DNA from: Verrucomicrobiales bacterium
Lineage (GTDB): Bacteria; Verrucomicrobiota; Verrucomicrobiia; Verrucomicrobiales; DEV007
Reading direction: 5' to 3'
Length of the DNA stretch: 64,000 nucleotides
Assembly: GCA_016795505.1 (NCBI GenBank)
Contig: JAEUHH010000088.1
Location: 1-64,000 of the forward strand
Shown: in pieces, positions 8,432-62,838 of the stretch
Layout: each line of letters starts with the position of its first letter
Position numbering within the stretch: position 1 is the first letter of the stretch
Made by a program: the position numbers and the translations under genes
The notes under the pieces: model-generated
Databases searched by the model: none
The model's input: the letters and a program-made list of their open reading frames with translations, nothing else
Told to the model about the DNA's origin: nothing

Positions 8432-9010
8432 GCCGGGCGAGCCACCTCACGGGTGCTCTGCCCACCGGATCACTATGTAAATATTTCCGGATTTATCACC
8501 TCCCGCTCGCGTGAAAATGATACTGAACATTTCCCATTTCTCACATCATCAAGAGGCTTCCCCCGGGAGGTGTGCCTGCCAAACACCGAAACGTCCGTCG
8601 TGAAAACCTGCGGCTGTCTCTCCAGAGAGTGAGGCAACGGTGTTCGTTCTTTTCAATTCCATTCAATTCCCAATCACGAACGAGGAACCCGCCAACGCCG
8701 CCTACGGCATTCCGGCTCTGATCGAGCCGGTCTGGCCGGGTCTCCCCGCCGAAGTCCGGGCGATGAGAGGACGCCGGCCCCGCGAGGGCGCCGCTTGCCG
8801 TTCCCAGATCCGCCCGCCCGATTCGTTCCCCCGTCTCCGGCCGAAATCCGACTCAAAACGATATCCGAACAGGTCTAGTCCCCTGTGGTCTGACGACGGT
8901 TGTTGAACTATCAGGCCTTCTGGCAAGGGAGATCCACCGCCGATTCCGTCTCGAGTCCGCCGCCCGGATGCCAGGGTCGTATCGTCGGCTCCCCCTCTTC
9001 GTGACCGGAC

Positions 9011-9084
9011 GCGCCGCGCACCAACTCGTGCAGGAGGGTTTCCAAAACCCACCATGCCTGGGGCAGCACCAGGGCGGCGTGCCC
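9011..9084 (+). tRNA. tRNA-Trp (CCA)
   Basis: Acceptor GCGCCGC pairs with GCGGCGT (9074-9080) with G1-U72 wobble. The anticodon loop is TTCCAAA. T-stem CCTGG/CCAGG with loop GGCAGCA. D-loop AACTCGTGCA has no GG. Discriminator G; the next bases are CCC, so CCA is not encoded exactly. Confidence 0.75.
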
Positions 9085-9099
9085 ATCCCCTTTCTCAAC

Positions 9100-9175
9100 G
9101 GGCCAGGAGTGTCGAAAGATAGCACGGCTGCCTTGCAAGCAGCAGGACCGGGAGCATTACCCGGCTGGTCCACCA
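9100..9175 (+). tRNA. tRNA-Ala (TGC)
   Basis: Acceptor GGGCCAG/CTGGTCC, anticodon stem GCTGC/GCAGC with loop CTTGCAA, T-stem CCGGG/CCCGG with loop AGCATTA. D-loop CGAAAGATA has AG instead of GG. Discriminator A and encoded CCA. Confidence 0.88.
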
Positions 9176-9184
9176 TTTTCATGA

Positions 9185-9261
9185 CGCGGTGAGGTCGAAG
9201 CAGTGGAGACGGGTGCCTTGGGAGCATCAGAAAGCAGGTGCGACTCCTGCTACCGCGACCA
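9185..9261 (+). tRNA. tRNA-Pro (TGG)
   Basis: Acceptor CGCGGTG/TACCGCG with C1-G72, as usual for bacterial tRNA-Pro. Anticodon loop CTTGGGA, T-stem GCAGG/CCTGC with loop TGCGACT, discriminator A, encoded CCA. Confidence 0.88.
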
Positions 9262-9276
9262 ATTTTCTTTTCCGAT

Positions 9277-9347
9277 CGCGAGCCGAGAAGACTCGACCTG
9301 GGGCTCATAACCCCGGAGGCCCGGAGCGTTACCGGGGCTCGCCACCA
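9277..9347 (+). tRNA. Initiator-like tRNA-Met (CAT) with a shortened D-arm
   Basis: Acceptor CGCGAGC/GCTCGCC leaves C1 opposite C72, a mismatch typical of initiators. The anticodon stem carries the initiator-type run of three G-C pairs next to loop CTCATAA. Only 15 nt separate the acceptor from the anticodon stem, so the D-arm is at most a small hairpin (CGAG, AAGA, CTCG). T-loop AGCGTTA; discriminator A, encoded CCA. Confidence 0.8.
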
Positions 9348-9359
9348 ATTTCCCAACAA

Positions 9360-9449
9360 GGGCGCCGATCCGGATGGCGGACTGTAAACCCGTCGTCGTT
9401 AAAGCATTCCGGAAGCCGACGAGTGGTGCGTTACCACCGGCGCCCACCA
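9360..9449 (+). tRNA. tRNA-Tyr (GTA), long variable arm, no normal D-arm
   Basis: Acceptor GGGCGCC/GGCGCCC, discriminator A, encoded CCA. Anticodon loop CTGTAAA with an A-C pair closing the stem. A long variable arm (CGTCG with CGACG) fits type II tRNA-Tyr. Only about ten bases (GATCCGGATG) lie between acceptor and anticodon stem, so a full D-arm cannot form together with that stem. T-loop TGCGTTA. Confidence 0.7.
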
Positions 9450-9455
9450 TTCTTT

Positions 9456-9530
9456 TCACCCGTGGGGTAACAGTAGCCCACCGGATTGTTAATCCGCGCG
9501 GTCTTGGTGCGAATCCAAGCGGGTGAGCCA
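9456..9530 (+). tRNA. tRNA-Asn (GTT)
   Basis: Acceptor TCACCCG/CGGGTGA with U1-A72, anticodon loop TTGTTAA, T-stem CTTGG/CCAAG with loop TGCGAAT, D-loop TAACAGTAG, discriminator G, encoded CCA. Confidence 0.88.
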
Positions 9531-9578
9531 GCTTTCACTTCCGACTTCCGAATGGCAGGTCCGCCATCCGGCTTCCAA

Positions 9579-9654
9579 CCTGGAGTAGCTCAATCAGCAG
9601 AGCACCCGACCGATAATCGGGAGGTTGCGGGTGCGAGACCCGCCTCCAGGACCA
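9579..9654 (+). tRNA. tRNA-Ile (GAT) with C33
   Basis: Acceptor CCTGGAG/CTCCAGG, D-stem GCTC/GAGC with loop AATCAGCA, anticodon stem CCCGA/TCGGG with loop CCGATAA. Position 33 is C, not the near-universal U. T-stem GCGGG/CCCGC with loop TGCGAGA. Discriminator A, encoded CCA. Confidence 0.85.
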
Positions 9655-9669
9655 TCCTCTTTCCTCTAT

Positions 9670-9744
9670 GGCCGGGTAGCTGAGACAGATTAGCGCGCCG
9701 CTGAAGCCGGCGAGAGATCGGAGCATTGCCGATACCGGCGGCCA
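9670..9744 (+). tRNA. tRNA-Phe (GAA), frayed acceptor
   Basis: Anticodon stem CGCCG/CGGCG with loop CTGAAGC; T-stem ATCGG/CCGAT with loop AGCATTG. The acceptor GGCCGGG/ACCGGCG has five central pairs but mismatches at 1-72 (G-G) and 7-66 (G-A). D-loop contains ACAGA. Encoded CCA. Confidence 0.75.
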
Positions 9745-9750
9745 TTTTCT

Positions 9751-9824
9751 TTTCCCGTGGTGTAACAGAAGCATGTCGCTCTGCGAAGGCGGCGGATCGG
9801 GTGCGAATCCCGGCGGGAAAGCCA
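9751..9824 (+). tRNA. tRNA-Arg (GCG)
   Basis: Acceptor TTTCCCG/CGGGAAA, anticodon stem TCGCT/GGCGG with loop CTGCGAA, T-loop TGCGAAT, D-loop TAACAGAAG, discriminator G, encoded CCA. A GCG anticodon is unusual because bacteria normally read CGC with ACG (inosine). Confidence 0.8.
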
Positions 9825-9842
9825 GTTTTCCCCATTTCAAGG

Positions 9843-9918
9843 GGTCCCGAAGAGGAACAGCAGACTCGCCACCCCGTCAAGGTGGAGACAGCCGGGGCGG
9901 CACCGGTCGGGATCGCCA
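9843..9918 (+). tRNA. tRNA-Asp (GTC) with C33
   Basis: Acceptor GGTCCCG/CGGGATC, anticodon stem CCACC/GGTGG with loop CCGTCAA (C33), T-stem GCCGG/CCGGT with loop GGCGGCA, D-loop GAACAGCAGA, discriminator G as expected for Asp, encoded CCA. Confidence 0.85.
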
Positions 9919-9934
9919 TTACTTTCCAATCGAC

Positions 9935-10009
9935 TCCCTCGAAGCATTAACAGTGATGCAGCGGTCTTTTAAACCGCGGAAGCAGGGGCAGTACCTGCCG
10001 GGGGAACCA
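9935..10009 (+). tRNA. tRNA-Lys (TTT)
   Basis: Acceptor TCCCTCG/CGGGGGA, D-stem GCAT/ATGC, anticodon stem GCGGT/ACCGC with loop CTTTTAA, T-stem GCAGG/CCTGC with loop GGCAGTA, discriminator A, encoded CCA. Confidence 0.88.
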
Positions 10010-10014
10010 ACCAT

Positions 10015-10090
10015 GTTGGCCATGGTGTATCAGTCAGCATTTCACCCTGTGAAGGTGACGGAACGGGTGCGAATCCCGTTGGCCAACCCA
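10015..10090 (+). tRNA. tRNA-His (GTG) with G-1:C73
   Basis: Acceptor TTGGCCA/TGGCCAA is extended by G at 10015 opposite discriminator C at 10087, the identity pair of tRNA-His. Anticodon stem TCACC/GGTGA with loop CTGTGAA, T-loop TGCGAAT, encoded CCA. Kept identity elements argue that this gene is functional. Confidence 0.9.
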
Positions 10091-10102
10091 CATTTCTCCC
10101 AC

Positions 10103-10176
10103 GACTCCGTGGCCGAGCAGCGAGGCCGGCGGCTGCAACCCGCCTCACGCAGGTGCAAGTCCTGCCGGAGTCTCCA
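10103..10176 (+). tRNA. tRNA-Cys (GCA)
   Basis: Acceptor GACTCCG/CGGAGTC, anticodon stem GGCGG/CCGCC with loop CTGCAAC, T-loop TGCAAGT, discriminator U73 (the Cys identity base), encoded CCA. D-loop GAGCAGCGA aligns base for base with the canonical pattern except A18 for G18. Confidence 0.9.
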
Positions 10177-10185
10177 ATCATTCAC

Positions 10186-10260
10186 GCGCCATTCGTCCAA
10201 CAGCCAGGACTCCTCCCTTCCAACGAGAGAACCCCGGGGCAGCACCGGGATGGCGCTCCA
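10186..10260 (+). tRNA. tRNA-Gly (TCC)
   Basis: Acceptor GCGCCAT/ATGGCGC, D-stem GTCC/GGAC with loop AACAGCCA, T-stem CCCGG/CCGGG with loop GGCAGCA, discriminator T, encoded CCA. The anticodon stem is poor: a seven-base loop leaves mismatches, a nine-base loop pairs better. Confidence 0.75.
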
Positions 10261-10272
10261 TCTGTTTCATCT

Positions 10273-10348
10273 GCCCGCGTAGCCCAACAGCAGAGGCAAC
10301 GCGTCGAGAGCGCGTCCAGTGCGGGTGCGAGTCCTGCCGCGGGCACCA
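10273..10348 (+). tRNA. tRNA-Leu-like (GAG), short variable arm, C33
   Basis: Acceptor GCCCGCG/CGCGGGC, anticodon stem ACGCG/CGCGT with loop TCGAGAG, giving GAG with C at 33. The variable region is only five bases, whereas bacterial tRNA-Leu is normally type II. T-loop TGCGAGT, discriminator A, encoded CCA. Shifting the stem by one base would give CGA (Ser) with a weaker stem. Confidence 0.7.
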
Positions 10349-10359
10349 TTTTCACGGAC

Positions 10360-10433
10360 AGGGGCTTAGTTTAAAAGTAGAACGCCTCTCTTACAAAGAG
10401 GTCGCGGGGGAGCGTTACCCTCAGCCCCCACCA
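10360..10433 (+). tRNA. tRNA-Val (TAC)
   Basis: Anticodon stem CCTCT/AGAGG with loop CTTACAA, D-loop TAAAAGTAG, T-stem GGGGG/CCCTC with loop AGCGTTA, discriminator A, encoded CCA. Acceptor AGGGGCT/AGCCCCC has an A1-C72 mismatch. Confidence 0.82.
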
Positions 10434-10446
10434 TTTCCCCCACCCT

Positions 10447-10520
10447 GCGGCATTCGTCCAATAGCAGGATGCCAGCGTGCCAAGCTGGAGACCCCGGAGC
10501 GTTACCGGGATGCCGCACCA
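10447..10520 (+). tRNA. tRNA-Gly (GCC)
   Basis: Acceptor GCGGCAT/ATGCCGC, D-stem GTCC/GGAT with loop AATAGCA, anticodon stem CCAGC/GCTGG with loop GTGCCAA, T-stem CCCGG/CCGGG with loop AGCGTTA, discriminator A, encoded CCA. Confidence 0.88.
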
Positions 10521-10542
10521 GCCCTTTTCCGCCCGACTCATG

Positions 10543-10630
10543 GCGGGGCGCCCCCACACCGGTCTTCTAAACCGGCGACGATAAACCGTGGGACGGATGT
10601 CACGAGGTTCGATGCCTCCGCTCCGCGCCA
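10543..10630 (+). tRNA. tRNA-like gene with TCT anticodon, long variable arm, no D-arm
   Basis: Acceptor GCGGGGC/GCTCCGC, discriminator G, encoded CCA. Anticodon stem CCGGT/ACCGG with loop CTTCTAA (TCT, Arg). T-loop is canonical TTCGATG. Only nine bases lie between acceptor and anticodon stem, so no D-arm forms, and about 27 bases form a long variable region with a CGTG/CACG hairpin. This architecture is abnormal for tRNA-Arg. Confidence 0.55.
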
Positions 10631-10644
10631 GTCCTTCGATCAGG

Positions 10645-10721
10645 GCTTTCGTAGCTCAATGGAGCAGAGCGCCGGGCTTCGAACCCGGAGGTTGCAGGTT
10701 CGAGTCCTGCCGGGAGCGCCA
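10645..10721 (+). tRNA. tRNA-Arg (TCG), canonical
   Basis: Acceptor GCTTTCG/CGGGAGC, D-loop AATGGAGCA with normal GG, anticodon stem CCGGG/CCCGG with loop CTTCGAA, T-loop TTCGAGT, discriminator G, encoded CCA. It is the internal control that shows how the other genes deviate. Confidence 0.93.
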
Positions 10722-10737
10722 CTATTCACCAGCTTTT

Positions 10738-10826
10738 CGGGGTGTAACTCAGATGGCCAGAGTCCGCGCCTTATAAGCGCGAAGCCCTCACAAGGTATAC
10801 GGAGGGTTCGATTCCCCCCACCCCCA
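10738..10826 (+). tRNA. tRNA with TAT anticodon and long variable region
   Basis: D-stem ACTC/GAGT with canonical loop AGATGGCCA, anticodon stem CGCGC/GCGCG with loop CTTATAA (TAT, reads AUA as Ile), T-loop TTCGATT. About 20 bases separate the anticodon and T stems, unusual for Ile. Acceptor CGGGGTG/CACCCCC leaves C1 opposite C72. CCA is not clearly encoded; boundaries are less certain. Confidence 0.7.
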
Positions 10827-10865
10827 TGGGCCGAATGTGACGAAGCCAGGATCCCCATTTTCAAT

Positions 10866-10941
10866 GCCCACGTAGCCCAACAGCAGAGGCGCCGGTCTCA
10901 GAAGCCGGAGGTTGCAGGTGCGAATCCTGCCGTGGGTACCA
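10866..10941 (+). tRNA. tRNA-Leu-like (CAG), short variable arm
   Basis: Acceptor GCCCACG/CGTGGGT with G1-U72, D-loop AACAGCA, anticodon stem CCGGT/GCCGG with loop CTCAGAA, five-base variable region, T-stem GCAGG/CCTGC with loop TGCGAAT, discriminator A, encoded CCA. A type I body is unexpected for bacterial Leu. Confidence 0.82.
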
Positions 10942-10953
10942 ATCCTTTCAGAT

Positions 10954-11029
10954 TCCTCCGTGGCAGAGAGAGAAATGCGCTCCTCTCGTAAAGGAGATCA
11001 TGTCGGTGCGACGCCGGCCGGAGGAACCA
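10954..11029 (+). tRNA. tRNA-Thr (CGT)
   Basis: Acceptor TCCTCCG/CGGAGGA, anticodon stem CTCCT/AGGAG with loop CTCGTAA, T-stem GTCGG/CCGGC with loop TGCGACG, D-loop GAGAGAGAAA, discriminator A, encoded CCA. Confidence 0.86.
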
Positions 11030-11042
11030 CTTTGCCAACGCT

Positions 11043-11116
11043 GACCGCGTGGCCCAACCAGAAGAGGCAATCGACTTAAAATCGATGAGTTGCGGGTGCA
11101 AGTCCTGCCGCGGTCA
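11043..11116 (+). tRNA. tRNA-Leu-like (TAA), short variable arm
   Basis: Acceptor GACCGCG/CGCGGTC, anticodon stem ATCGA/TCGAT with loop CTTAAAA, five-base variable region, T-stem GCGGG/CCTGC with loop TGCAAGT, discriminator A. The following bases are CTT, so CCA must be added. Confidence 0.82.
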
Positions 11117-11128
11117 CTTCTCCTTTTT

Positions 11129-11203
11129 GTCCCCGTCGTCTATGCAGTAGGACTTCAGGCTTTCAATCTGACAAACCGGGTGCGAGCCCCGGCGGGGATG
11201 CCA
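11129..11203 (+). tRNA. tRNA-Glu (TTC)
   Basis: Acceptor GTCCCCG/CGGGGAT with G1-U72, D-loop TATGCAGTAG, anticodon stem TCAGG/TCTGA with loop CTTTCAA, T-stem CCGGG/CCCGG with loop TGCGAGC, discriminator G as expected for Glu, encoded CCA. Confidence 0.88.
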
Positions 11204-11270
11204 ATTTCGCGCGATCACAACCCGGACCCGGTAAGGCCGGGCATCACTGGGCGCCTTTTGCCACGTCGTT

Positions 11271-11346
11271 ACCCGGATCGTTCAACCAGCCAGGACCTCG
11301 GACTTTGACTCCGAAGATCGCGGTGCAAATCCGCGTCCGGGCGCCA
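11271..11346 (+). tRNA. tRNA-Gln (TTG)
   Basis: Acceptor ACCCGGA/TCCGGGC has an open 1-72 (A-C), in keeping with the weak first pair of tRNA-Gln. D-stem GTTC/GGAC with loop AACCAGCCA, anticodon stem TCGGA/TCCGA with loop CTTTGAC, T-stem CGCGG/CCGCG with loop TGCAAAT, discriminator G, encoded CCA. Last gene of the array. Confidence 0.88.
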
Positions 11347-11600: not shown

Positions 11601-12182
11601 ATGAACTCCATTCTTCACAAAAGCATCGTCCTGGTGCTGAACCGGAACTGGCAGGCGATCAACATCCAGACGCCCGCCGAGGCATTCTGCCAGATGGCGA
11701 CCGACGTCGTCACCGCCCTCGACATCCAGGGCAACGAGTCGATGGTCCCCACCCGCTGGGAGGACTGGAAGCAGCTGCCGGTGCGCGATCGCGACTTCCA
11801 GATCGGCACCGCCCACGGCCCCATCCGGGTGCCCACCGTGGTGGTACTGTCCCGCTTCTCCAAAGTCCCCCTGAAACGGCCCAAATTCAATGCCCGCAAC
11901 CTCTGGGCGCGCGATGGCGGCCGCTGCCAGTACACCGGCCGCGAACTGCGCCCCGGCGAGGGGAACATCGATCACGTCGTCCCCCGCAGCCGCGGTGGCC
12001 GGACCACCTGGGAAAACTGCGTCATCGCCGCCCGCGAGGTGAACTCGCGCAAAGCCGACCGCACCCCGGAGGAGGCCGGCCTCAGGCTCCTGAACCAGCC
12101 GCGACGCCCCCGCGAGGTCCCGGTGACCGTGCTGTTGAAGAACGTGCACGGCATCCCCGACTGGGAGCCCTTCCTGCTGTGA
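11601..12182 (+). CDS. HNH endonuclease family protein
   Basis: A 193-residue protein with an HNH nuclease core: RDGGRCQYTGREL, then IDHVVPRSRGG with the catalytic histidine, then TTWENCVIA and a conserved-looking AREVNSRKA. The usual first CxxC zinc pair is degenerate here (CQYTG). The N-terminal half matches the widespread ~190-residue HNH proteins found in many bacteria, whose targets are largely unknown. I start at the ATG at 11601 because the 20 upstream codons look like leader sequence. It is the first gene after the tRNA array on the same strand; tRNA arrays can travel with nuclease genes, so a functional link is possible but unproven. Confidence 0.85.
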   Translation: MNSILHKSIVLVLNRNWQAINIQTPAEAFCQMATDVVTALDIQGNESMVPTRWEDWKQLPVRDRDFQIGTAHGPIRVPTVVVLSRFSKVPLKRPKFNARNLWARDGGRCQYTGRELRPGEGNIDHVVPRSRGGRTTWENCVIAAREVNSRKADRTPEEAGLRLLNQPRRPREVPVTVLLKNVHGIPDWEPFLL

Positions 12183-12483
12183 TCGACACCCCCTTTCGGC
12201 CAGGCCGCGCGGTCTCGGAGGACTTTCCCGAGAGATCCCGCCCATCGGCTGCCGGATACCGTGCCTGAAAAGCACCCTGGTTTCTAACCGGTCAGAGGTT
12301 CGCCTCTTCATCCGCCTTCCCTCCCGCCATCCGTCGGATACGGCTTTGTCCGATCCGGCACCCGCGAAAGAGCCCTGCGAATCCGGCCCATCCCCTCCCG
12401 ACCCGTCGGGCTGGTGACGCCGCTCATTCCCGCTCCGGAGCGGTGATGGCGGGAGGGAAGCGCCCCGGGAATGCCGGACTTTT

Positions 12484-12535
12484 CGATCCAACTCCGTTTG
12501 ATCTCCGATCCTACCCTGTTTGATCGGAAACCCCT
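12484..12535. repeat. Dispersed ACCCTGTT palindromic repeat, locus 2
   Basis: A full unit CCGATC-CT-ACCCTGTT-T-GATCGG lies at 12505-12527, with a degenerate unit (core ACTCCGTT) just before it. The locus is in the 426-bp gap between the HNH and slipin genes. The start of that gap (12260-12300) also holds small hairpins, one with a UUCG loop. Confidence 0.8.
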
Positions 12536-12608
12536 CCTCCGGACTTTGGAAAGAACGAACACCACCCCTCCCGCCCCTGCCATCTCAAACCTGCCAATCC
12601 ATCCACCC

Positions 12609-13385
12609 ATGACAGAAATCACCATCGCCCTCATCACCCTCACCGCCGCCATCTGGGCCTTTGTTGCCGCCCGGAGGCTGCTGCATGAAGCCACCGAATC
12701 GGTCACGATCTGGGACTACCAGTCGGGACTGCATTTCAAGGACGGCCGCTACGTCGAGTCTCTCGCCCCCGGCAAGCATCGCTTCTGGGGGCGCGGACAT
12801 CGTGTGATCGTCTATGACAACCGCATCTCGGAGCTGATCATCCAGAGCCAGGAACTGCTCACCGCCGACAGCGCCACGCTGAAGCTGACGGCCGTGGCCC
12901 AGTGGCGCATCGCCGACGCCCGCCGCTACCACGTCGCGGCCGAGGACGCCCGTCAGGCGCTCTACACGCGCATCCAGCTCGCCCTGCGCCAGACGATCGG
13001 CGATCTGACGCTCGACCAGATCATCGAACGAAAGGCCGGCTTTGGCGCGGAATTGCTCACCCGCGTCCACGATCAGGCCGCCACAGATCTCGGCATCGAG
13101 GTGGCTGCCGTCGACATCCGCGACACCATGCTCGGCTCGGAGCTGCGATCCGCCTACTCCGGAGTGCTCACCGCACGCAAGGAGGCCCAGACCAAACTGG
13201 AGAAAGCCCGCGGAGAAGCGGCCGCCCTGCGCACCCTGGCCAATGCGGCCCGTCTTTTCGATGATCATCCCGGCCTGCTGCGCCTGCGCGCCCTCGAAAC
13301 GATCAAGGAAGCCGGCGCCGGCTACGGCAACCAACTGATCGTCGGCCTGCCCGAGGAATTCCTCGGCTTGGTAAAAAAGAGCTGA
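12609..13385 (+). CDS. SPFH/band 7 family protein (slipin-like)
   Basis: A 258-residue membrane-anchored SPFH protein. An N-terminal hydrophobic segment (about residues 5-20) is followed by a band 7 domain (for example QSQELLTADSATLKLTAVAQWRI and ALRQTIGDLTLDQIIE) and a coiled-coil tail (about 190-235). Such proteins oligomerise into membrane microdomain scaffolds and may act in protease control or stress tolerance. The partner NfeD protein often encoded beside bacterial slipins is absent here. The start at 12609 puts the membrane segment at the very N-terminus. Confidence 0.85.
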   Translation: MTEITIALITLTAAIWAFVAARRLLHEATESVTIWDYQSGLHFKDGRYVESLAPGKHRFWGRGHRVIVYDNRISELIIQSQELLTADSATLKLTAVAQWRIADARRYHVAAEDARQALYTRIQLALRQTIGDLTLDQIIERKAGFGAELLTRVHDQAATDLGIEVAAVDIRDTMLGSELRSAYSGVLTARKEAQTKLEKARGEAAALRTLANAARLFDDHPGLLRLRALETIKEAGAGYGNQLIVGLPEEFLGLVKKS

Positions 13386-13411: not shown

Positions 13412-14479
13412 ATGATTCCGAAAACCGATCCCTGGGTGCGCCGACGCCGTGATGTCCGCGACCATCGGCAAAGTCTCGAAAAGGACCTGCGGGCGCGAAT
13501 CCGCGAGGATCGCCGGCTCTCCCGGGCAACCTGGGAGGCGCCACTGATCGAGTTGGAGGAGCCCTACCAGCGCGGGTGGGTCAGATTTTTTCGCCTCACC
13601 GCCGCCTCCCGGCAACGGCCGGATGCGGCGCAACTGAAAGCGCTCCTGGTGCTCGTGGGCCGGGTCGAATACTGCCGGAAGCGGCAGTTTCTCCAATGGG
13701 ATGGGAGGCAGGCCAAATATGTTCCCACTCCCCATCGGCTGTATGGTCTGATGACTCGCAGCGAGGCCTTCGGAAAGGTGCCGAAAGAGCTGTATCCCTA
13801 CTTTCAGCTCAGGTCGAACCGCCTGCGACTCAACGCCGAAATCCTGTCCATGCGGCTGATCCGGGGAATCGGCGAATGGGTCGACATCGCCCGACCCGAA
13901 CTCTTCGAATCGGTGATCGCACCCCACATTGTCACCCACCGGAGGGCCGTGTTGCCGGACTGTGAACGCCGCCGCAGCGAACTCGACGCCTGGTTCGAGA
14001 GGAACCTCGGTTACGATCAATTTGCCCGGCTCTCAGGCTATCCCGTCTCGCGGTGGCGATACGAGTGGAAGGCCCCTTTCAGAAGGTCCCTGAACCGGAT
14101 CGCGGCTGCGGAAATGAAAGAGGCCGCGGATCGTTTCAACCTTCCCTGGCAACGCGACAAAGCGGCCCGAATCAAACATCCCTCTCGCGGCACGGTTGGC
14201 ACCGTGCCTCTTTTATGGCTACCTCATCCCACGATCCCTTCCCGTCCATGCCCCATCCCATCGACCTTACCACCGCGCGCTCGCCGGAATGCCTCCTGTT
14301 CGAATGCATCACGGGCAGCCGGGCCTATGGCACGGAGACGCCGGAGTCGGACACTGACCTGCGCGGGGTGTTCATCGCGCCGCGGCGCGCCTTTTTTGGG
14401 CTCGACACTCCGGAACAGGTCAGCGATGCGGCTCAGGACGAGACCTATTACGAAATTGGCCGCTTCGTCGATCTACTGA
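13412..14479 (+). CDS. Unknown Arg-rich protein; 3' end runs over the next gene
   Basis: The first ~250 residues look like a genuine protein: charged, Arg-rich, with segments such as WVRFFRLTAASRQRP, GRVEYCRKRQFLQWDG and RGIGEWVDIARPELF. I do not recognise a family. From about residue 255 the composition turns Ser/Arg/Pro-rich and the frame lies on the RlaP-like gene in another frame, so the tail is probably not native. A terminator-like hairpin (14189-14214) sits where the gene should end. A lost stop codon or a frameshift near 14150-14190 would explain this. Confidence 0.5.
   Translation: MIPKTDPWVRRRRDVRDHRQSLEKDLRARIREDRRLSRATWEAPLIELEEPYQRGWVRFFRLTAASRQRPDAAQLKALLVLVGRVEYCRKRQFLQWDGRQAKYVPTPHRLYGLMTRSEAFGKVPKELYPYFQLRSNRLRLNAEILSMRLIRGIGEWVDIARPELFESVIAPHIVTHRRAVLPDCERRRSELDAWFERNLGYDQFARLSGYPVSRWRYEWKAPFRRSLNRIAAAEMKEAADRFNLPWQRDKAARIKHPSRGTVGTVPLLWLPHPTIPSRPCPIPSTLPPRARRNASCSNASRAAGPMARRRRSRTLTCAGCSSRRGAPFLGSTLRNRSAMRLRTRPITKLAASSIY
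14189..14214 (+). terminator. Intrinsic terminator-like hairpin
   Basis: GGCACGGT and ACCGTGCC form a perfect 8-bp stem around TGGC, followed by TCTTTT. It lies inside the upstream frame and 34 bp before the preferred start of the next gene, so that gene must have its own promoter or the hairpin must act as an attenuator. Confidence 0.65.
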
Positions 14480-15324
14480 CCCGGAACAATCCCAATATCC
14501 TGGAAATGCTTTACGCTCCGGATGACTGCGTCAGATACCGGCATCCACTGATGGACCGCATCCGGCCGGAGATGGTGCTTTCCAAGCTGTGTCGCGACAC
14601 GTTCGCCGGCTACGCGCTGTCACAAGTCCACCGGGCACGCGGCCTGAACAAAAAGATCGTGAATCCGCTCGACGGCCCGCGTCGGTCGGTGCTCGATTTC
14701 TGCCACGTGGTATCGGGCCAGGGCTCCATGCCGCTCGCCGAGTGGCTGGCGGAGCGCGGAAGCCGGCAGGAGGACTGCGGGCTGGTGAAGATCCCCCACA
14801 TGCGCGACGTCTACGGCATCTACCTCGACGATGCGCACGGATCGCTGGGCTACCGGGGCGTGATACGCGAGGACGACTCGACGGAGCTGAACCTGAGCAG
14901 CATACCCAAGGGAGAGCAGCCGGCCGGCTGGATGAACTTCAACAAGGACGGCTACAAGCGCCACTGCCGCGAGTATCGCGAATACCACGAGTGGCTGGCC
15001 CTGCGCAATGAGGCGCGCTATGCGACGAACATCGCCCACGGGCGCAACTACGACTCGAAGAACCTGATGCACACGTTCCGCCTGCTCGACATGGCCGGGG
15101 AGATCGCCGCCGAGGGTCGTATCACCGTGCGACGACCAAACCGCGACTGGCTGATGCGCGTCCGGGGTGGCGAGTTCGCCTATGACGACCTGATCGCCCT
15201 GGCGGAAGAGAGGATCGCCCACATCGACGCCCTTTTCGCCGCCTCGTCGCTGCCCGAGCGCCCGGATCGTGCGGCGCTGGAGACAGCGCTGGTCGAGATC
15301 CGCGAATCGTGGTATCTGAGGTGA
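14248..15324 (+). CDS. RlaP-like nucleotidyltransferase
   Basis: A 358-residue member of the pol-beta nucleotidyltransferase superfamily. The signature is near the N-terminus: TGSRAYGTETPESDTDLRGVF, holding the GS motif and the metal-binding Asp pair. The remaining alpha-helical part fits the RlaP/DUF2204 group, described by others as associated with RNA repair. Start at 14248 gives the compact N-terminus MPHPIDLTTARSPE; an ATG at 14215 in the same frame is possible. The calcineurin-type phosphoesterase begins 6 bp after its stop, so the two are almost certainly co-translated. Substrate is inference; an RNA end is plausible. Confidence 0.75.
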   Translation: MPHPIDLTTARSPECLLFECITGSRAYGTETPESDTDLRGVFIAPRRAFFGLDTPEQVSDAAQDETYYEIGRFVDLLTRNNPNILEMLYAPDDCVRYRHPLMDRIRPEMVLSKLCRDTFAGYALSQVHRARGLNKKIVNPLDGPRRSVLDFCHVVSGQGSMPLAEWLAERGSRQEDCGLVKIPHMRDVYGIYLDDAHGSLGYRGVIREDDSTELNLSSIPKGEQPAGWMNFNKDGYKRHCREYREYHEWLALRNEARYATNIAHGRNYDSKNLMHTFRLLDMAGEIAAEGRITVRRPNRDWLMRVRGGEFAYDDLIALAEERIAHIDALFAASSLPERPDRAALETALVEIRESWYLR

Positions 15325-60756: not shown

Positions 60757-62838
60757 GTAGGGACACCGGTTGCCCGGTGCCCCCCTTACAGATCCCGGCG
60801 TGCGGAATTACCGCACCGGGCTCCTCAGAGGACGCGCACGCAGAGCGAAGCGGACCTTTGGTTGGCTTTCTGGTTTCCATCATGCAGGATTTGGCGGCTT
60901 TTGGCAATCTTTCAAAACACCGGAGCACGACATTCCACGACGCGAGCCGCCGGCAGTCGCCAACGCTTCCACCAGAGGGTCATGTCCGCCTTGGTCATCG
61001 ACCGGCGCTGGCTGCGCCGGTTGAGCCATTTGTAGAGCAGTCTCCACACTTCCCACTGGTATTTGCCCAGCATCACGGCGTTGCCTCTCACTCCGTAGTA
61101 GTTCACATAGCCTTGCAACTTCCGCCGCAGCACCGCCACCAAGTCCGCCATCGGCAGATTCCTGGCGCTTTTGATCCACTCCTTGAACGCCCGCAGGCTC
61201 GCCCGGAATTTCTCCCGGTTGGTCCGGCGTTTCACAGCGCTGGCTTTCGGGTTGCGGATCGTCCGCCCCCAGTAGAAGTCGAATCCCAGGAAGGTAAACT
61301 TCCCGCTCCGCTCGGGGTCCCAACGGTCGAACTTCACCAGCGCGCTCTTTTCCTCCGCGACGCGAAGCGCGAACTTCGACAAGCGCTCGGGCAGGGCTTG
61401 CAGGTAGGCTCGGGCGTCTTCTTCCCTCGCGAAGCACACGATGCTGTCGTCGGCATAACGCCGGAAAAGCACCCGGCCTTTCGCTTTACGCCTCACCACC
61501 CGGTCGATCCACAGGTCTTGCACGTAGTGCAGGTAGATGTTGGCCAGCACGGGCGAGATCACCCCGCCCTGCGGCGTCCCCGTCGCTGGGTGCACCGTCT
61601 GTCCATCCTCTTCCATCACTCCGGCTTTGAGCCATTTCACAATCAGGCGGATCAGGCCGCGATCGGCGATGCGCTCCTCCAGCATTCTCACCATCCAGCC
61701 GTGGTCGATGTGGTCGAAGAAGCTTCTAATATCGGCTTCCACCACCCAGCGGTATTCTCCGCCGTTGAGCGCCTCGCGCAGATCCTGACTGGCCTGCCTC
61801 GCGCCCTTTCCGGCGCGGTATCCGATGCTCTCTTCGACGAAGTCCGCCTCCCAGATCGACTCCAGGATCATCTTCACGGCTTGCTGCACGATTTTATCCT
61901 CCAACACGGGGATGCCCAGAGGCCGCCGTTTCCGGCCACCCGCTTTGGCGATCCACCGCCGCCTGACGTTCCGGGCGCGGTACCGCCCTTCTTTCAAGCG
62001 CGTTTCCAAATCCACCAGATTCCGGTCCAAATCCTTCGCATACTCCGCGTGGGTCACCCCGTCGATTCCCGGAGCGGCTTTGCGTTTCAGGCATTTGAAG
62101 GCCTCGGCCAACATCTGGCGGTCCAACAGGCGGCTCAGTCCCCGGAAGCGGTGCTTCGGTTCTTTCACCGCCTTCGCTCCCAGTGCGGACAGGGTGCGTG
62201 ACACGCTTTGATTGGGAGTATTCCTTTCCCTCGCGTGGGTGCTTTGTCCGCTTTGTCTCTCCGTCCCTCCCTTCGCCTTGTGAACGGCTCTCCCGTCTCC
62301 GACTACTATGAAGGGATCTGACTCCCGGTCCACCGCGGCTGCCACTTCCCATTCGGGTTGATGGCAGTCGCCCCTCAGCGAGAGGATCGCTCGCGAGGGC
62401 ATGCGTCCCGGGTCTCCCGAGTTCGAGGTGCCGTCCTCCTCAGGACGGTCATCTGCTCGCTTCTTTTCACTCATGCCACGGTCTTGGTTCGACCCCGGTG
62501 GAGCCTTGAGCGCTCGCCAAAGCACGCTGTCAGGTGCTGGATTCTCCATACTGTTACTGGATCTCCCTCCACATCCATATACTTACGGGGCTGTATCAAC
62601 CTTCAGGCGGGTGCGAACCGCCCTGTGGCCTGCGTGTTTCCCTGTGTACGCTTCGTCGAAGCCGTTTCGCCATCCCTCCGCCTGGGCGGCTTCGGGCTGT
62701 TCGTTGATATTGCGGTGGCTCCCGCACGGTTTCATGGCTTAGCTGACTTCCACGCAACACTCGGTAGTCGGTGCTGGCTGGGCTTTACGACATGGTGACT
62801 TTCACACCACAAGAAGCGCCTCGCTTAGCTCGGCGCAC
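60757..62838 (-). mobile_element. Group II intron, bacterial class C-like
   Basis: On the minus strand the element starts with GTGCGCCGAGC (5' end at 62838) and ends near 60757. Domain V is seen at 60823 to 60790 as a 34-nt hairpin beginning GAGCCCGGTGCGG and ending in CGCCGGGATCT, followed by a domain VI-like hairpin (GGCACCGGGCAACCGGTGTCC). The maturase lies inside. Total length is about 2.08 kb. It carries no visible endonuclease domain, as usual for class C, whose members tend to insert near terminators. Exact 3' end is uncertain by a few bases. Confidence 0.85.
60912..62474 (-). CDS. ltrA: Group II intron reverse transcriptase/maturase
   Basis: A 520-residue intron-encoded protein. RT blocks are clear: KRKAAPGIDGVTHAEYAKD, RPLGIPVLEDKIVQQAVKMI, VVEADIRSFFDHIDH, GTPQGGVISPVLANIYLH, FRRYADDSIVCFA with the catalytic YADD. 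The maturase X domain follows (SLRAFKEWIKSARNLPMADLV, LQGYVNYYGVRGN). No HNH endonuclease domain at the C-terminus, in line with class C introns. The N-terminal ~100 residues are low in recognisable motifs; start at 62474 (MSEKKRADDRPEE) is a choice. Confidence 0.93.
   Translation of the reverse strand: MSEKKRADDRPEEDGTSNSGDPGRMPSRAILSLRGDCHQPEWEVAAAVDRESDPFIVVGDGRAVHKAKGGTERQSGQSTHARERNTPNQSVSRTLSALGAKAVKEPKHRFRGLSRLLDRQMLAEAFKCLKRKAAPGIDGVTHAEYAKDLDRNLVDLETRLKEGRYRARNVRRRWIAKAGGRKRRPLGIPVLEDKIVQQAVKMILESIWEADFVEESIGYRAGKGARQASQDLREALNGGEYRWVVEADIRSFFDHIDHGWMVRMLEERIADRGLIRLIVKWLKAGVMEEDGQTVHPATGTPQGGVISPVLANIYLHYVQDLWIDRVVRRKAKGRVLFRRYADDSIVCFAREEDARAYLQALPERLSKFALRVAEEKSALVKFDRWDPERSGKFTFLGFDFYWGRTIRNPKASAVKRRTNREKFRASLRAFKEWIKSARNLPMADLVAVLRRKLQGYVNYYGVRGNAVMLGKYQWEVWRLLYKWLNRRSQRRSMTKADMTLWWKRWRLPAARVVECRAPVF

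Follow-up and report, generated by a model that had tools for sequence, protein, structure and literature searches.

A tRNA gene array with a replaced 18-55 elbow contact, linked to a conserved leader RNA and RNA-repair genes in a Verrucomicrobiales bacterium

Analysis of a 64,000-nucleotide stretch of DNA from a Verrucomicrobiales bacterium (hereafter the window; GenBank assembly GCA_016795505.1, contig JAEUHH010000088.1, positions 1 to 64,000) revealed an array of 25 tRNA genes or remnants, packed into 2.3 kb of the forward strand (9009-11346), in which a contact of the tRNA elbow has been exchanged for another. In most of these genes, G55 and A18 stand where U55, modified to pseudouridine (Psi55), and G18 are expected. 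The exchange is coupled between the two positions and accompanied by changes in other tertiary pairs, while the elements that govern aminoacylation are retained. The array is preceded by a conserved structured leader RNA and followed by genes associated with RNA repair. Judging from sequence and by analogy with the trn operon of Anabaena, the locus is probably an inducible operon for RNA repair and reserve translation, directed against translation or RNA damage and equipped with a new elbow.

The count of G55 genes given in the initial annotation of this DNA, 22 of 25, proved exact; the T55 genes are Arg(TCG), Ile(TAT) and an odd Arg(TCT). Its tally of the 54-58 pair among the 22 G55 genes (T-A in 12, A-T in five, G-G in four and T-T in one) was likewise reproduced, and tRNA-Tyr, which it singled out as the only gene off the pattern, is itself probably broken. 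The accompanying statement that AG replaces GG in the D-loop holds for 19 of the 22 and fails for Trp (9009), Met (9277) and Tyr (~9360), whose D-arms are odd, damaged or deleted. The canonical elongator elbow of G18 with U55(Psi) is therefore not what the G55 genes carry. G19 persists within the AG motif, and position 57 is a purine in 827 of 828 G55 tRNAs from the wider sample described below; the retention of C56 is not independent evidence, since the tRNA sets were filtered for this base.

The remainder of the host genome provides a direct comparison. It contains about 45 further tRNAs, and all 41 that were examined have the TTCRA T-loop together with GG, which supports the proposal that the array, a dense run of more than 20 genes redundant with the chromosomal set, is a separate tRNA set. 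A TruB gene is also present in the host. Because G55 is chemically unable to become pseudouridine and TruB is nonetheless encoded, the array tRNAs bypass the TruB reaction, as had been suggested.

We assembled a set of 46 distinct arrays, each with five or more G55 tRNAs, from loci picked by similarity to the window array, by similarity to its HNH endonuclease gene or by the G55 Leu pattern, and added IMG/VR contigs sharing the same Leu pattern. The resulting counts are of related sequences, and most of the genomes are metagenome assembled. With D-loop classes assigned from dinucleotides (AG-only or GG-only), 1087 distinct tRNAs with C56 from arrays and viral contigs include 741 that join G55 to an AG-only D-loop and 223 that join T55 to a GG-only D-loop, whereas the crossed classes hold four and one; the remainder have ambiguous D-loops. 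Both classes are represented at 56 loci, where 693 of 697 tRNAs agree, compared with a mean of 507 and a maximum of 539 in shuffles; as the shuffling was done within loci, lineage is controlled for. The 54-58 pair is TA, AT, GG, CA or AA in 809 of 828 G55 tRNAs (within-amino-acid shuffles, mean 578, maximum 607). Both couplings thus lie far above shuffled expectation, and this array-wide covariation upholds two claims of the initial annotation: that A18-G55 substitutes for G18-U55 with G19-C56 kept, and that the compensated change reflects selection rather than decay. Sequencing error was rejected as the cause, since 46 independent arrays share the state, and chance or pseudogenes were rejected on the strength of the coupled pairs and the identity elements retained.

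Rewiring extends beyond the 18-55 contact, with the 54-58, 8-14 and 15-48 pairs switching to matching alternatives. Among G55 tRNAs, positions 54 and 58 occur as TA (513), GG (129), AT (121), CA (36), AA (10), CC (9) and TT (7); positions 8 and 14 as TA (596), AA (96), AT (40) and GG (33); and positions 15 and 48 as AT (298), AA (136), AC (100), GG (81), GC (73) and TA (42). Position 60 tracks position 54, being T with T54 and A with A54 or G54. Two conserved targets of modification are depleted in G55 tRNAs relative to the host: U at D-loop positions 16, 17 and 20 (0.25 versus 0.69) and G46 (40% versus 85%). These losses are compatible with independence from modification and also with drift.

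Features of the acceptor end indicate that these genes still specify functional tRNAs. The G3-U70 pair is found in 22 of 23 G55 Ala tRNAs as opposed to five of 805 others, the discriminator base N73 matches the bacterial expectation in 766 of 828 G55 tRNAs (442 expected), and 458 of 592 cellular G55 genes encode CCA. Because tertiary pairs are coupled and acceptor identity is kept, we conclude that the array members are selected, structured tRNAs.

How such an elbow could fold is suggested by general knowledge of RNA structure. The sequence U55-C56-R57 forms a UNR-type U-turn, and G55-C56-R57 forms a GNR turn. On this structural reading, G55 can keep the turn, with A18 supplying the matching D-loop base. 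The retained G19-C56 pair provides the face that the L1 stalk and RNase P read, and Psi55 has been called universally conserved (PMC4810234).

A second conserved element of the locus was first spotted as a feature common to the regions upstream of arrays. In the window, this leader RNA spans 8541-8655 on the forward strand, with a core of about 95 nucleotides (8560-8655) that scores 93.5 bits against our covariance model (R1). It consists of a 5' hairpin (GGTGT/ACACC), two inner hairpins and a T-rich tail. The alignment supports three helices, with seven of 19 pairs changed on both sides, and the 5' hairpin pairs in 28 of 28 sequences, three of which have compensated changes. Alternatively, this ACACC can join an invariant GGTGT farther downstream in a long-range helix, AACACCG/CGGTGTT (95.9% of the helix's cells), and because it can pair with either GGTGT, the hairpin and the long-range helix are mutually exclusive folds. 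This arrangement suggests an attenuator-like switch; the leader may instead give rise to a Y-RNA-like product.

The leader and the arrays are linked nearly one to one. Of 57 relatives searched with the covariance model, 21 have the leader, each in a single copy, and all 21 are array carriers. In 20 of them, the leader shares a contig with the array and precedes it; the remaining leader sits some 380 bases short of a contig end, and the array of that genome (G054) starts another contig. Each of the 49 leader matches found in 92 loci is followed by tRNAs on its own strand; in all five arrays that lack a leader, the upstream sequence is shorter than 570 bases. No Rfam family matched the leader at gathering score, only chance-level matches appeared at E-values up to 5, and the leader does not match YrlA in Rfam. 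At one locus, in Roseibacillus persicicus KCTC 12988 (L129), a leader is present and the array is mostly T55 (seven of eight), possibly an intermediate or reverted state.

Downstream of the array, the forward strand of the window encodes an HNH endonuclease of an array-linked subfamily (11601-12182; Pfam HNH_4/HNH), a slipin-like SPFH/Band 7 protein (12471-13385; Band_7, E = 2e-25), an uncharacterized protein whose family recurs downstream of six arrays (13412-14479; no Pfam or NCBIfam match), and an RlaP-type nucleotidyltransferase of the pol-beta family involved in RNA repair (14053-15324; PF10127, E = 1e-21), whose true start probably lies downstream of 14053. HNH homologs follow 11 arrays of our first set. 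Within 8 kb of the 46 arrays, we found HNH genes at 20, TROVE/Ro60 at 15, RtcB at 10, slipin at seven and RlaP at six, along with two uncharacterized families; a second array-side family without a Pfam or NCBIfam match is represented by L061:9826-10653. The initial interpretation is partly supported, and the leader RNA, the RNA-repair neighborhood and the rewired 8-14 and 15-48 pairs go beyond it.

These observations are best read as describing an inducible locus for reserve tRNAs and RNA repair, because its parts and layout match those of the Anabaena trn operon. We envisage a switchable leader followed by roughly 25 tRNA genes for nearly every amino acid and then by RNA-repair proteins. Translational stress or tRNA damage would cause the leader to allow transcription through, and the long transcript would be cut into tRNAs that stand in for damaged host tRNAs or add to them, as the repair proteins deal with broken RNA. 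Acceptor identity, anticodon and G19-C56, the features read by synthetases, RNase P and the ribosome, are kept. G55 in place of Psi55 would exchange the UNR turn for a GNR-type turn, with A18 pairing with G55 and the 54-58, 8-14 and 15-48 pairs replaced by matching alternatives. With its internal contacts rewired, the set would therefore fold without Psi55 and Gm18, and many of its genes without T54 and m1A58. A bolder version, which we put forward as decidedly tentative, is that this elbow-recoded second set is invisible to elbow-reading modification enzymes and to tRNA-destroying toxins, and that the leader, as a new RNA sensor, switches it on when ordinary tRNAs are damaged, to serve as a parallel translation pool during RNA repair.

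Several observations weigh against the proposed operon. Damage is apparent in three or four of the 25 window genes (Tyr, Arg-TCT, Gly-TCC and Trp), and a Ser tRNA gene was not found in the window. Within 8 kb, most of the 46 arrays lack RtcB and TROVE, and neither adjoins the window array; RtcB is encoded elsewhere in the genome, and RlaP and slipin genes do lie next to the array. Members of the HNH subfamily are also present in genomes where no leader was detected. Folding of single leader sequences is only moderately stable (z from -2 to +0.1). Matches to the sigma-54 consensus in 43 upstream regions were no better than in shuffled sequence, leaving no sign of an RtcR/sigma-54 promoter, and we rejected sigma-54 control of the array; a search for a sigma-70 promoter signal also found none.

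Of the alternatives, one would make the array an anti-defense or mobile-element set, in which tRNAs derived from phages or plasmids sustain translation and their changed elbows and anticodon loops evade toxins and anticodon nucleases. The distribution of arrays is patchy, HNH-linked arrays are found on plasmids and phages, and IMG/VR contigs, three with a terminase gene, contain G55 tRNAs mixed with T55 tRNAs. Moreover, 15 array anticodon loops can be compared with a host counterpart, and 13 of them deviate from it at positions other than the anticodon. However, no integrase or phage gene was present among the neighbors scanned, RecJ and SHMT genes flank the window locus, the leader and repair genes point to a resident operon, and canonical elbows were seen in the named phage and plasmid arrays examined. 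We regard this explanation as doubtful, and it overlaps with the favored one, as a stress set can serve both ends.

We think it unlikely that the arrays hold functional spare tRNAs with a neutral elbow, in which one early double change was locked in and spread within arrays because redundant genes tolerate isosteric swaps. The joint drift of many tertiary pairs (8-14, 15-48 and 54-58) in a redundant gene set would fit this view, as would a D-loop U content near the expectation from base composition. Against it, the pairing of A18 with G55 is close to fixation in 20 amino-acid families, and the same combination occurs in one tRNA-Ile of Nostoc. For all 20 amino acids, G55 tRNAs are also closer to T55 tRNAs of the same amino acid than to G55 tRNAs of other amino acids. 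This similarity suggests repeated conversion, although part of it is due to shared synthetase identity. Remolding of the array from a single tRNA is not supported by this comparison.

A role outside translation, as decoys, Ro60 ligands or amino-acid donors comparable to the peptidoglycan tRNAs with altered elbows, appears very improbable to us: the elbow is altered and a Ro60/TROVE gene lies beside 15 arrays, yet the sets cover nearly all amino acids with intact anticodons and synthetase identity elements. Decay into pseudo-tRNAs, to which the few damaged window genes might point, deserves next to no credence given that, in 46 arrays, stems and identity bases persist and tertiary pairs stay coupled, a covariation that already contradicts it.

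The window genes, all on the forward strand, were detected unevenly by standard tools. ARAGORN called 13, and the Rfam tRNA model found 13 at gathering score and 15 above that score when the region was searched alone; genes beyond these calls were recovered by a structural scan that returned zero false positives in 50 kb of shuffled sequence. As standard tools overlooked about 10 of the 25, such sets are probably under-annotated. Genes with AG/G55 and T54-A58 found by ARAGORN and the structural scan are Asn(GTT) (9456-9530), Ile(GAT) (9579-9654), Arg(GCG) (9751-9824), His(GTG) (10016-10090; C73, with a G before position 1), Cys(GCA) (10103-10176; T73), Leu(GAG) (10273-10348), Leu(CAG) (10866-10941), Thr(CGT) (10954-11029), Leu(TAA) (11043-11119), Glu(TTC) (11129-11203) and Gln(TTG) (11271-11346), to which Rfam and the structural scan add Pro(TGG) (9185-9261). 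AG/G55 with A54-T58 is found in Ala(TGC) (9100-9175; G3-U70) and Phe(GAA) (9670-9744), both from the structural scan, and in Val(TAC) (10360-10433) and Gly(GCC) (10447-10520), from Rfam and the structural scan. The scan also identified Asp(GTC) (9843-9918) and Lys(TTT) (9935-10009), with AG/G55 and G54-G58. Canonical GG/T55 elbows occur in Arg(TCG) (10645-10721; ARAGORN, Rfam and structural scan) and Ile(TAT) (10738-10829; ARAGORN and structural scan), the latter with a long variable arm.

The other genes are less regular. A weak Trp(CCA) gene (9009-9084) has two acceptor mismatches, an unclear D-arm, G55 and G54-G58. The gene at 10186-10260 (AG/G55, G-G) has a damaged anticodon stem; the scan reads its anticodon as CCA, and comparison with Gly(TCC) of other arrays makes Gly(TCC) more likely than Trp(CCA). 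The relaxed structural scan yielded no intact fold for the Tyr(GTA) gene or the unusual or damaged Arg(TCT)-like gene. The former, read by eye (approximately 9360-9449; T54-T58), has a deletion of the D-arm and anticodon arm and, lacking their normal form, is probably broken; the latter (approximately 10542-10630) has T55 and a weak match to tRNA-Sec (26.7 bits). Met(CAT) (9277-9347; G55, A54-T58) combines a short D-arm with a C1-C72 mismatch and a GGG/CCC anticodon stem, an initiator-like appearance shared by Met genes of loci L019 and L020. U33 is near-universal in tRNA; C33 is present in the window Ile (9579) and Asp (9843) genes and in 7-10% of G55 tRNAs. The three window Leu genes have class I variable loops, and 98 of 110 G55 Leu tRNAs, with several anticodons, have a five-base variable loop, which is unusual for bacterial Leu. 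A short-variable-loop Leu also occurs as a T55 gene in a Nostoc plasmid array (L246). Far from the array, a group II intron D1-D4-6 match (61 bits) lies at 62486-62700 on the reverse strand.

Similar arrays are scattered through the host family and order and further in the class, and are absent from many genomes, giving a patchy distribution in Verrucomicrobiota. Named relatives of the HNH protein beside the window array likewise mark the host as a verrucomicrobium. G55 is not a general trait of tRNA arrays: those of M. avium, Euzebya, Acidiphilium, Methylibium and Variovorax are canonical, those of Nostoc and Tolypothrix nearly so, and the phage tRNA loci of S-CAM7, Cp1R7A-A1 and KpXa_1 are all canonical. 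G55/AG tRNAs were observed in three IMG/VR contigs with terminase (L168, L184 and L187), one of which, L168, has two tRNA-Glu(TTC) genes, one of the G55/AG and one of the T55/GG class; IMG/VR viral assignment can be wrong, and several short leader-bearing contigs are probably chromosomal. No array was found at the HNH-only loci L236, L240-L242, L244 and L245; at L242, on an Acaryochloris marina plasmid, the related HNH gene is beside a plasmid-borne methionine--tRNA ligase and a transposase.

These arrays show that a tRNA contact regarded as near-universal is replaceable across a whole tRNA set, in hundreds of natural tRNAs for 20 amino acids. They make it possible to ask, in natural molecules, on which elbow contacts the ribosome, RNase P and synthetases depend and what purpose Psi55 serves, and the leader RNA provides an entry point to how reserve tRNA sets switch on. 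A limited literature search, with the RNA-repair survey and the Anabaena operon paper lying outside it, found no earlier description of an A18-G55 elbow.

Among known systems, the closest is the trn operon of Anabaena sp. PCC 7120, whose 26 tRNAs are co-repressed by TrcR with rtcB, an HNH gene and a slipin gene, and which is induced by translation inhibitors and favors survival (PMC10272220). Both loci place one long tRNA operon beside a normal chromosomal set, with HNH and slipin genes and, in relatives, rtcB; the Anabaena operon differs in its plasmid location and ribbon-helix-helix (RHH) repressor (PMC10272220). HNH-linked arrays on Nostoc and Tolypothrix plasmids also resemble the window array but have canonical elbows, except for one doubtful Tolypothrix Met call and one Nostoc tRNA-Ile, the latter an Ile(GAT) with AG/G55/G54-G58 on the plasmid of Nostoc sp. 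TCL26-01 (L246:8884). Array units of mycobacterial plasmids and phages comprise 26-27 redundant tRNAs for 19-20 amino acids and a conserved HNH gene (PMC12803027, PMC5966550), whereas the M. avium and Euzebya plasmid arrays have T55 with GG and no leader RNA match. The Rtc RNA-repair operon with Rsr/Ro60 and Y RNA has genes for RtcB and TROVE/Ro60, as do some of the array loci, and also resembles them in having a structured RNA and, as the likely signal, tRNA damage (PMC7790460). It is under RtcR/sigma-54 control, of which the arrays show no sign, and that account describes no 25-tRNA array (PMC7790460). Finally, eukaryotic tRNA-Ala, with A54-A58 and R15-A48, likewise illustrates coordinated replacement of conserved tertiary pairs; in the abstract of that account, replacement of G18-Psi55 is not reported (PMC7566577), whereas the array tRNAs combine A18-G55 with common G54-G58 and A54-T58 pairs.

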